A stretch of 64,000 nt of DNA from Lota lota (taxonomy: Eukaryota; Chordata; Actinopteri; Gadiformes; Lotidae). Positions 6,101 to 12,100 of the stretch are shown piece after piece. The stretch lies in contig JACYXH010000813.1 of assembly GCA_026745465.1 (NCBI GenBank), positions 1,232,392 through 1,296,391 of the forward strand. Reading direction: 5' to 3'. The translations under genes were made by a program, and so were the position numbers. Under the pieces are notes generated by a model. It was not told the origin of the DNA, searched no databases, and worked only from the letters and a program-made list of their open reading frames with translations. The first letter of the stretch is position 1; each line of letters opens with the position of its first letter.

Positions 6101-9100
6101 CCGGTGTGTCAAGAAGGCCCTCAGAATCATTAGGGACACCAGCCACCCCAATCAGAAACTGTTTGAGTTACTGCCGTCGGGGAAGCGGTACCGAAGCCTC
6201 GGGGCCAAAACCCAGAGGATGATGAACAGTTTTTTCCCCCAAGCAGCCAGGCTCCTGGAAAAATCCATTACCCCCAAACCAACCCCACGCACACTACAAC
6301 AACCGATTATTTGATTATCTGCATTATATTCTGTATTTTGCACAGCATTTTCTGAGAAAAAGTAAACGACCATAGATTCACCCCTTGTGAATTACTCACA
6401 CGTCTGTAGATCGGTAATGTCAATCCTCTGGGTTTGGAAGATGAGGGGGGCGGTGTTTAGGCTGTCAGCGTGTCGCCCGTGGGTGCAAACAGCTACGGCT
6501 ACGAGTGTGCGCATGCACATGCAGGACTGGAGGGTCAGGAGGACTCACGTGTCTGAGGAAGCAGCTGCTGACAGACAGGGGGGCGTGGCCGCAGGACTCC
6601 AGCTCCTTCAGGAAGTACTGGCTGTGGAAGTCGCTCAGCTTCTCCACGTTGCCGAACACCGTGCTGCGCTTGCCCCGCAGGTCCTGGGGCAGGTCCGGGC
6701 GCTCCATCTCCGGGAAGTAGTGCTCCATGACGTAGTTGAGTGAGCGCACGTACTCCCGCTCCGTGACGATCATCTCGTCCATGATGTGCTGGGCCTTACT
6801 GGAGCCGGCCATGTGGTAGAATGTGAGGGAGGGGAAATAATTTGATTCTTTAATGATCGTTAAAGGATTCTTTTTTACTCATGACTATACTTTTTACTAA
6901 TAGGGCTGGGCAGGGATACAATATTATTCCTTCTTGTCTCTTATCATCACCATCATGAAATTGAGATATTAACAACCAGTTAATTCATCTAAAGCTATGC
7001 CCTGACTGGATCTTTATGGGGGGGGGGGGGGGGATATTAAAGGAATTGAAATATAGTTTCTGTTTGAAAACGTGTCTGATATGACCATATGCTTATAGTT
7101 ACTGTATAATAAACGTGCAATTGTTTGGAATAATATTTTGAATTAAAAGTCGATGGATAGCATATCAATACAGTGTATCTAAGAAATCGAATGATAATCA
7201 CACACATACAAACATTGAATGTCAATGCTCTTATGGAGCGCGGGGGGATTATGTCCTCAGCGGCCCTGGCAGTCCCTCACCTGCTTTGCTTCTTTCCGTC
7301 CACCAGCTCGTGTCTGCTGGGGGGCCGCGAGGACGGCAAGGAGGAGGAGGAGGAGGAGGACATGCTGCGGCTGCGGCCCAGCGCCGGGCTGGTCACGTCG
7401 GGCCTCTGCAGCTTCTTCTCGGCCGACACGCTGTTGGTGACCTCCAGGCCGCGGATGTACACGCCCGTGTAGCCGTGCACGTGGCTTGCGTCGCCGTGAC
7501 TGCCCTCCCTGGAGGGACTCAGCTCGTAGCTCAGGGTCTTCTTCATGATCTTCTTCAGCGGCTGCTGCTTGCGGTGCCTCGCCGCCGCCGCCACCGCCGG
7601 GTAGGCTGGCTCCGAGCAGCAGGAGACAGACGAGGAGTCCATGGTGCAGTCGCTGTCCGTGTCGTCGAACGGCGACGGGCTGTGGCGCAGCGTGCCCTCC
7701 CCCTCGCCTGGGAAGAAGGGGAAGTGGGAGGAGGAGGACAGGGAGCTGCTGGGGCTCTTGGGGAAGGGCCCCGCCGAGTGGGGCTGCTTGGCGTCCTGGT
7801 CGCCCCCCGGAGCTGGCCCAGCTCCGGGGTCAGGGCTAGAGATGGAGTAGGGGGGTCTATCGGGGAGAGGCAGGCTCCCCTTCCGCCCGTGCAGACCTGC
7901 CGTAGGTCCCTGCCGTGTGTTTCCTGTGGCGTCCGACCCCGAGACGGGGACGGCCGCCTGGGTGGACTGGAGAGGCGGTGAGGCGACAGAGGCCATGGTG
8001 GCGGTGGTGGCGGCGCTCATGGCCTTAGCCAGCGTCTCCTCCAGCTGCTGTTTGGTCTGCTGGCACTTGTGCCACAAAGTGTTCCAGCGCTGCAGCTGCC
8101 CGGGGCTGTCCAGGGAGAGCACCATCTGGTTGAGGGGGCCGAAGTTGTGTGGGGAGAACTTGGTGGCCTCGGCGTGGTAGTCCCGGAGGATCTGGAGCAT
8201 GGCGGGCGGCAGGCTCACCCCATCGCTCTCCATGCTTAGCTGGTGGAAGTAGTCTTGGCAGTGCTCCATCCATTTGTTGGCCTGTATGGAGAGTCAAAAA
8301 GAGAGGATTGGTTGAACTGTGCTGCTCTACTGGACAGCACTGGAACTGCGTGTTGAATGAAAATAGATGTCGGAGAGTTCTGTAATATATCCTGCAGTTT
8401 GTTGGATTTCCACTGGTCCTTATAGGTTTCCTTTTGTTGTCCTGAAAGCTTTTTTATAAAGTAAACATTTTTCTTTATATTCACTTTTTACCCATTTAGC
8501 CTTTTGTGCAAAGCAACTTACACAAATTGTTTTTATAAATGCATTATATGTTACAGTTATACGTTTTACTCAAGGATGCCTCCAGGTAAACTGCAGACAT
8601 TCATGTTCGAACACAGAACCGCTCGACTGGGAGTCAAACACCCCTGACCACAAGAAGACCACACTCTTGCATACTCGTATGGAAGCCTTACCGATTCGTA
8701 GAACTGGTACAGGTTGGTGAGCGTGTCCAGCTGGGTCTTCCTTCCCTCCACCCGGGTCAAGACCGAGCCCAGGTGCTCCTTAAAGAGGAGGAGCGCCGCC
8801 CCGGGGAGACACTCGGGAGACTCCTTCACCACCTGCAGCCCAAGCCTCTGCTGGTGCTGTCAGAGCAACACAGGGACATTAGGACACACTGGTGCTGTCA
8901 GAGCAACACAGGGACATTAGGACACACTGGTGCTGTCAGAGCAACACAGGGACATTAGGACACACTGGTGCTGTCAGAGCAACACAGGGACATTAGGACA
9001 TACTGGTGCTGTCAGAGCAACACAGGGACATTAGGACACACTGGTGCTGTCAGAGCAACACAGGGACATTAGGACACACTGGTGCTGTCAGAGCAACACA

Positions 9101-12100
9101 GGGACATTAGGACACACTGGTGCTGTCAGAGCAACACAGGGACATTAGGACACACTGGTGCTGTCAGAGCAACACAGGGACATTAGGACATACTGGTGCT
9201 GTCAGAGCAACACAGGGACATCATTAGGACACACTGGTGCTGTCAGAGCAACACAGGGACATTAGGACACACTGGTGCTGTCAGAGCAACACAGGGACAT
9301 TAGGACATACTGGTGCTGTCAGAGCAACACAGGGACATCATTAGGACACACTGGTGCTGTCAGAGCAACACAGGGACATTAGGACACACTGGTGCTGTCA
9401 GAGCAACACAGGGACATTAGGACATACTGGTGCTGTCAGAGCAACACAGGGACATCATTAGGACACACTGGTGCTGTCAGAGCAACACAGGGACATTAGG
9501 ACATACTGGTGCTGTCAGAGCAACACAGGGACATTAGGACATACTGGTGCTGTCAGAGCAACACAGGGACATCATTAGGACACACTGGTGCTGTCAGAGC
9601 AACACAGGGACATTAGGACACACTGGTGCTGTCAGAGCAACACAGGGACATTAGGACATACTGGACTGTAGCGATGCACCTCCTTCAGCCATGGATATTG
9701 GAACTGGTTTTGTTCAAATGAAGGTGGAATAAAATAAATCGGTCTAATCTTGAATAATGTAGAACAAATAATACTAATAATACTATAATAATCATTATAA
9801 TATTATTAATTGTATATACATATACATTTGGATGGAGTCGCCTTAAACGGCTCAACATGTCTGACGTGCCCCTGCTAGCATATTGCGCGTTGAAGACGGT
9901 CACTGATTTATCGATCACTTTATTGGCTTTGCATTTGTCCAAAAGGAATTCTAATGTTCCCAGACTTGAATTACGCTGGGGTATCTACCAACTAATCACT
10001 CTCTCCGTTCCCCATTATCTACCTTTGTCATCATTCTGGCTGTGTATATAGTAGTATAATGAAGTCCCGCTACTATAAAGTATCACTGTTTATAATATAT
10101 ATATTATAATAATCTAGAAAACCATAATATATATAATCTAGCATTTACCACAGACTCTGCGAGAAAGTTGTCCAAACTCTGCCTCATCTCCTTGACGGTG
10201 GCGAGAGAGAGAGTCTGCGAGTCCAGAGGTGCGAGCTGCTTCTCTCCTTCCACGCTAAACCACAGTTTGACCTGCCAACCAAAAAGGGGAGAATGTGATT
10301 CTAGTTCAAACATGGGAATTACTTTGGATCATGTACAACTCATGTGGAAAACCCAAGTGATGGGTGAGAGGTATCTAACACTACAGCTACGTGTCAAACT
10401 GGTATTGTAAATATGTGAAGCCCACCTGTTGTGTCTGCTCTGCAAACTTGCAGACCTCCAGCAGGCCTTCCAAATGTTTCTGGGAGTCGTTGGAGAGGAT
10501 CACAAGCTCATGCACCTCCTCGTCCACCTGGTTATACAGCGCATTCACCATGTCTATAGCGTCCCTTTAAACAGTCAAACAGAGAAAGGAATATGGAAAA
10601 CAAAGAAAACAGATGGAAGAAGATGCTGAAAATATGTACGAAAAGCTGTAGCTATCATTGAAATAAAATAAAACATTATTTGTAGGCATTGTTTTTACTT
10701 TTTCATCTGAATTTGGTTTACCACCATAATTCTGGTCATTTATGTATTATTGGGACCCCATAATAGTGACACTGCAGTACCTGTAGTTGTCATTTTGGCA
10801 GGCTTCTTCCTTCCTGATGCGAGCCAGGACAGTGCCCCCCTCCAGACGCAGTCTGTTGAGCCGCGCATCGTCCAGAACACTCTTCATGAGGTGTCTCTGC
10901 TGCTCCATCATCTCACACACACCCTGGAGCAACACACACAGTGACAACCAACACATATCAATACCTACTGTTTAGCAGACACTTTAATCTAATGCAAAGG
11001 TTAATTTATCAGGAATTAGTAGGAGACAGTGTCCCGCTCAAGGATGTCCACAGAGAGACTGAATACAGTGGGGTTTGAACCCAGAACAGTTTGGCTTGGA
11101 GTCATAAAGCTAACCACTAGACTATTCTGCCTCTTCAAAGTATACAGGGAGAACGAGCAATAGATAAACCTAGTAATCATTCATATCAGCTATTCATTTT
11201 GTAATCACTCAAAGTGCAAAAGTGAGATCAGCAAGTTGATTCTGCAAGTGCAGTTTAGGAACACATCTCCTCCAGAAACCTTGTCCCTGCAGCCAGAGGA
11301 ACCAGGCTGACCAGGGACGATGCACCGGGTGGCAAAAAGAGACACATCAATCAGAGGACCGGAGTCGGGGGCCTGACCTGGGATGTCTCTGGGTTGACCC
11401 AGGTCTTCAGCCTGTCGATAGACTCCTGGAGAGACCAGATGGCCGCACTGCAACTCCTGGCGAAGGGCTCAATTTTCTGAGAGTGTCGATATTTTGAATA
11501 TTGATTAATCATTAATGCAACATGAAGTGTTTATGTCCCATATACACTACATGGTGTGTATAAGCCCACTGAATTGAGAGAGAGAGAGAGCGAGAGCAAG
11601 AGCGAGAGAGAGATGCCCAACAGTAGCCTCTACATGTAAATTATGTTAGAATATATATCATCTATTTGGTAAACTACAGACAATACTGAACTGTTGTTCT
11701 TTAATCAAGCACCCAAAAACCATGAGAGCCGCCCACCTGTCGGAAGTGGAGCCAGTGCTTGTGGTTGTAGTGGAAGGTGCCCTCCAGATCTGCCGTGAGC
11801 TGGGTGTTGTCAATGTGCTTCAGCAGGGATTTGAGGGACGTTACCAGCTCGTTCTGTGGCGAAACAAACACAAGCACACCTTAAAACCACACAGTGACAT
11901 GATGTATGGGTGTATGGGTCACTTCCTGCCAAGGCGTGTAGCAGTGGTGTGAATTCAGTATGATTTTGTCACGCAGATCAGAATCCGATGAGAATCAGAA
12001 TCAGAGTTGCTTTTATTACATCTTAACGTACAAGTACGCAAGAGTAAAATTCTTAGGCTTGGATCAATGATCCAAGCGTACAAGGTGTTTCTTAACTACA

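Follow-up and report, generated by a model that had tools for sequence, protein, structure and literature searches.

Which of many identical 3' splice sites is joined to the preceding exon, and does their number affect the messenger RNA (mRNA)? The question is raised by a minisatellite on the minus strand of the stretch of contig JACYXH010000813.1 analysed here (64,000 nucleotides, hereafter the window). The array occupies the 3' end of an intron in a RhoGEF gene, which an initial annotation had named plekhg4b, and runs into the following exon. Each of its 21 units carries the same complete acceptor, and within the array the reading frame is kept by the last copy only. The array is probably a minisatellite of the mirage type, the name given in amphioxus to tandem repeats that span intron-exon borders: a duplication across the splice junction that has expanded and is mostly ignored, with the last copy making the functional mRNA. 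Its surroundings are as follows (nt, nucleotides; bp, base pairs; a slash within a sequence marks a splice junction or an array edge).

10149..10271, minus strand: exon before the array (exon 12 of the initial annotation), 123 nt, donor GTG/GTAAAT
8857..10148, minus strand: intron holding the array, 1292 nt, of which 520 nt would remain if the 20 extra units were removed
8851..9664, minus strand: minisatellite, CCAG and then 21 units T[A/G]TGTCCTAATG(ATG)TCCCTGTGTTGCTCTGACAGCACCAG, in the transcript order AGIAAIAGIAGIAGGGGAGGG (I, 41 bp)
9628, 9590, 9549, 9511, 9473, 9432, 9394, 9356, 9315, 9277, minus strand: first bases after the acceptors, upper part of the array
9239, 9198, 9160, 9122, 9084, 9046, 9008, 8970, 8932, 8894, 8856 (last), minus strand: first bases after the acceptors, lower part of the array
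8692..8856, minus strand: exon after the array (exon 13 of the initial annotation), 165 nt, 55 codons, open, phase 0 at both ends, donor TCG/GTAAGG

Array structure and the repeated acceptor

Tandem Repeats Finder reported the array with a period of 38 bp (21.1 copies, 95% matches) and also with a higher-order period of 117 bp (7.0 copies, 98% matches). On the minus strand GTTGCTCTGACAG/CACCAG is repeated identically in all 21 units, 17 of which measure 38 bp and four 41 bp. GCACCAG occurs 21 times, and the acceptors are spaced by 38 bases in 16 of 20 intervals and by 41 bases in four. Parsed so that each unit ends at CACCAG, the 21 units cover 810 bp and comprise ten of a G type and seven of an A type, named after the second base, together with four that have three additional bases; no private change was found among the 21. 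Four extra bases, CCAG, open the array before the first unit. The 18-mer across the junction, TTGCTCTGACAGCACCAG, has 21 exact matches within the window compared with 0.16 expected, and no further match with up to three mismatches was found elsewhere in the window. No dispersed copy of the unit was found in the window outside the array, and a 34-mer of the unit had no exact match in viral contigs, where none was expected. The array structure is real in the given sequence and far beyond chance. All copy numbers are those of the assembled sequence and refer to this one sequence. With head-to-tail units of 38 bp in 21.1 copies, the array lies within the range of 6-99 nt that PMC2688266 gives for minisatellite units.

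The uniformity of the 21 units, none of which has a private change, points to recent expansion or homogenisation. The same uniformity would be compatible with an assembly artefact or a miscounted array in a region rich in repeats, and the draft-genome version of one amphioxus mirage appeared misassembled to its authors (PMC3087553). However, the three unit types follow an ordered pattern with the 117-bp higher-order period, and the 814 bp of the array are within the reach of long reads. An artefact is considered very unlikely.

The first six bases of the exon 8856-8692, CACCAG, belong to the repeat unit; their exonic status is suggested by the open frame. A complete U2-type 3' splice site, with a branch-point match, a tract and an AG without an intervening AG, is present in 21 of 21 copies. 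The A of the CTRAY match is followed by 22 nt to the exon in 17 copies and by 25 nt in four. All 21 copies have the same 3' splice-site score of 8.16, within the range of six other presumed acceptors of the same gene (6.67-13.61); the matrices used here for acceptors and donors are built on approximate frequencies and are not MaxEntScan. For this comparison, five of 13 located peptides were left out as their exon edges are unclear, and of eight sites scored by name the one at 10925 was left out for its misplaced edge. The score of an array copy is reached by 2.65% of the 8611 other AGs in the window. The array acceptor is ordinary in strength.

A strict module rule, with the array's own score as the threshold, was passed at seven places in the window outside the array, both strands included. 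In order-2 Markov sequences, on average 2.4 sites passed per 64 kilobases on one strand, and the largest value in 20 runs was four. None of the six other gene acceptors passes: three have no CTRAY within 45 nt, and the rest fail on distance, score or an intervening AG. Because the threshold was set at the array score and none of these acceptors passes, the rule captures how uniformly a well-formed site recurs and does not mark the array copies as unusually strong. The initial annotation had placed the repeat at an intron-exon border and described a real 3' splice acceptor amplified about 20-fold. Both descriptions agree with the sequence: the array crosses the border by six bases, 21 identical copies of ACAG/CACCAG were counted with the last at 8856, and the amplified segment is the whole module, with branch-point match and tract, rather than the AG alone.

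A weak donor-like site also lies five bases past each acceptor, reading CCA/GTGTGT (4.18) or CCA/GTATGT (4.02).

Reading frame and acceptor choice

The consequences of acceptor choice were followed through these features.

8889..9664, minus strand: twenty upstream acceptor modules, equal in score to the last copy, each giving a premature stop if used
8857..8888, minus strand: intronic part of the last unit, with branch-point match, tract and ACAG; the sole array copy that keeps the reading frame
7277..8281, minus strand: frame of the next exon, phase 0, with GCC AAC AAA as its first codons at 8281 and its stop at 7277; the extent of the frame and not an exon end

When the upstream acceptors were joined by script to the exon 10271-10149, all 20 led to a stop 17-22 codons past that exon. 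The second AG of the upstream copies (CACCAG/) gave stops at 15-20 codons, again in 20 of 20 cases. The initial annotation had supposed that some combinations of 38-bp and 41-bp units may keep the frame. Six upstream copies are of frame-keeping length, adding 114, 228, 342, 459, 576 or 693 nt, but they still run into a stop, and the supposition does not hold. From the last copy the frame is open to the stop at 7277, and within the array this copy is the only one that keeps it. The AGs 6 and 9 nt beyond the last acceptor keep the frame too, with scores of 2.73 and 0.89 vs. 8.16. Since every upstream join gives an early stop, use of an upstream copy would yield transcripts for decay, not protein variants. 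In-frame variants by acceptor choice, as made by tandem alternative acceptors, are produced by none of the 20 upstream copies, and the early stops from upstream joins resemble those of a poison exon.

The frame is also kept when the whole exon is left out. Its 165 nt begin and end in phase 0, and the neighbouring exons, when joined, stay open to the same final stop at 7277. The array might weaken recognition of the exon and cause frequent skipping, which would give a protein 55 residues shorter. However, the donor of the exon outscores that of the upstream exon (7.8 vs. 5.4, approximate matrix), and frequent skipping appears quite unlikely.

The equal local scores of all 21 copies and the nonproductive outcome of 20 of 20 upstream joins could also be read as a splicing rheostat. 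The upstream copies would then compete with the last one, the share of functional mRNA would fall with copy number (to 1 of 21 if all were equal), and array length would set the output. The last copy is nevertheless distinct in its exonic context, and upstream acceptor use would lengthen the exon to up to 937 nt, beyond the usual size of internal exons in vertebrates, which are usually shorter than this. The published observations fall on both sides: in designed contexts, two equal acceptors were used without order preference (PMC6783452, section 7), whereas the amphioxus mirages did not disturb regular splicing by reverse transcription-polymerase chain reaction (RT-PCR), as reported in PMC3087553. 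Taken together, a rheostat is unlikely. Its full form, a vertebrate mirage tuned by copy number in which 20 of 21 equal acceptors feed decay and the amount of functional RhoGEF mRNA depends on minisatellite length, is held to be slightly more doubtful. As a bolder addition, re-splicing could proceed along the array via ACAG/CACCA/GTRTGT (donor 4.0-4.2 vs. 5.4 for the upstream exon), leaving 5 nt each time. If true, this could allow a tiny exon or a new intron to arise, in line with the proposal made for amphioxus mirages.

The units themselves do not discriminate between the copies; the difference between the last and the upstream copies is the downstream sequence. GAR/RGA triplets are absent from the unit, and the 165-nt exon has 17 of them, a density of 0.103 per nt overall and 0.079 per nt over its first 76 nt. 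If this exon is recognised by exon definition over its full extent, the last copy would be favoured.

RNA structure was considered as an acceptor selector and found little support, as the copies differ little in predicted structure and the folding energy of the array sequences is ordinary (z of -0.50, 0.15 and 1.38, and 0.04 for the real 41-nt unit). ACAG is predicted to be paired in all 21 copies, with an unpaired probability of 0.001-0.022. The tract of the last copy is predicted to be the most open of the 21 (0.367 vs. 0.268-0.357).

The favoured explanation, a border-spanning duplication, can be set out in steps. The segment first duplicated in tandem would have been 38 bp long, starting in the branch-point region, containing the acceptor AG and ending six bases into the exon. 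The initial duplication possibly occurred via slippage between the CCAG at both ends of this segment: the array starts with TCCAG/TATGTCC and ends with CACCAG/CAGAGG, and CCAG is present at both ends of one unit. Later growth may partly have taken place in three-unit blocks of 117 bp, as the unit order AGI AAI AGI AGI in the exon-distal half of the array points to such steps. The intron now ends in 21 locally equal acceptors, of which the last would be the functional one since it alone adjoins exon sequence that the splicing machinery could define. The upstream copies would add pyrimidine-rich sequence without purine motifs, and occasional upstream joins would contain a premature stop, so that nonsense-mediated decay should remove them. 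Rather than being a device, the array is most likely a by-product that is neutral or at worst mildly costly.

Several points weigh against this explanation. A microhomology of four bases such as CCAG is weak evidence by itself, acceptor usage is predicted from genomic sequence, CACCAG as the native exon start is suggested by a single sequence, and the count of 21 copies is that of the assembly. The branch-point 4-mer of the last copy is predicted to be less open than those in the other 38-nt contexts (0.229 vs. 0.343-0.546), and predicted local folding sets this copy apart only slightly. The choice of the last copy is no foregone conclusion because neither position was preferred when two equal 3' splice sites were placed in designed contexts (PMC6783452, section 7). 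In amphioxus, splice signals are present in many of the repeats but not in every one (PMC3087553), and the undisturbed splicing seen there may be no guide to an array in which all 21 modules are intact.

Gene context and other elements in the window

The identity of the gene comes from exons downstream of the array.

3739..6794, minus strand: DH and PH domain exons of the same gene, Dbl/Trio-like RhoGEF, with Pfam and PDB matches

The DH-PH pair matched RhoGEF (PF00621, 3.5e-31) and SOS1_NGEF_PH (PF22697, 1.1e-11). The closest PDB chains to this part were Dbs and Trio (6.7e-55 and 8.2e-55), followed by others including Kalirin. The exons around the array gave no weighty family match (the best Pfam hit, with an E of 0.049, did not reach the cut-off, and the best PDB hit had an E of 0.2), and two upstream pieces of the gene gave no Pfam match. 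By its domain matches the gene, apparently that of a fish, is a Dbl/Trio-type RhoGEF with DH and PH domains. This type is compatible with the name plekhg4b and would not prove orthology as against a relative. Reverse-transcriptase-like frames were noted by eye at 5494-6314 on the plus strand, a non-long-terminal-repeat (non-LTR) element inside the RhoGEF gene in opposite orientation. Broken pieces resembling another non-LTR reverse transcriptase were noted, likewise by eye, at 1653-2314 on the minus strand.

A second large minisatellite lies at 43627-44994, with a 21-bp unit GAGAGAGACACTATGCAGGGA in ~63 copies; it is less uniform (83% matches) and has long open stretches in the plus frames of up to 410 amino acids. 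GA/TC runs that are very long and perfect or nearly so occupy 3204-3374, 43229-43425 and 49312-49531 (85.5, 98.0 and 110.5 copies). At 32318-33541 on the plus strand, two adjoining frames of 200 and 206 amino acids resemble by eye a hAT-like transposase or a ZMYM/TTF-type relative.

Comparison with known systems

Work on how the spliceosome chooses among identical acceptors has mostly used constructs with two sites. The present gene is a natural one with 21 identical acceptors, and joining to any copy other than the last would be visible as an early stop, making the array a good test case for acceptor choice. The array probably belongs to the described kind, the mirages, apparently in a vertebrate and with a neutral cause. 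This suggests that mirage repeats occur in vertebrates, for which no priority is claimed; vertebrate mirages would allow intron gain and effects of length to be studied.

Known tandem acceptors mostly comprise two or three AGs with a common branch point and tract. Like NAGNAG and other short-distance tandem acceptors, the array places a series of acceptors ahead of a single exon. However, each of its 21 modules has its own branch-point match and tract, and 20 of them are nonproductive. Intronic variable number tandem repeats (VNTRs) can alter splicing, for example that of ABCA7 in human. The array, too, is an intronic tandem repeat close to an exon, but its unit holds the native acceptor together with exon bases. 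The designed tandem 3' splice-site libraries of Mikl et al. 2019 (PMC6783452) also place acceptors of equal strength in series; these constructs have two designed sites, in contrast to 21 sites in a natural gene. Another minisatellite serves as a promoter and not as an acceptor array (PMC3039753).

The closest counterpart is found in amphioxus. The following comparison draws on the amphioxus report (PMC3087553). Mirages, tandem repeats spanning intron-exon borders, were described and named there in Adh3, where their units measure 10-72 bp. Similar repeats were found in the globins BflGb6 and BflGb9 and at other loci, and are described as possibly general in cephalochordates. The BflGb6 mirage comprises the 3' end of an intron and the 5' part of an exon, in units of 150-160 bp that are 81-100% alike, with six and three copies in two haplotypes. 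RT-PCR suggested that regular splicing is undisturbed, with only the authentic border present in the mRNA; the authors also consider unstable repeat length and the gain of introns. The frame outcomes of the present array would agree with sole use of the authentic border. Structurally, the present array conforms to this description, as its unit runs from the intron via ACAG into CACCAG, the putative first six exon bases; like the BflGb6 mirage, it is a minisatellite-like repeat of an intron 3' end and an exon 5' part. The initial annotation had called the case unusual, and this stands only in part, as border-spanning tandem repeats were already known as amphioxus mirages (PMC3087553). The array differs from them in its 38- and 41-bp units of three forms only, in its 21 copies with a complete acceptor each and six exon bases, and in its location in an apparently vertebrate gene.

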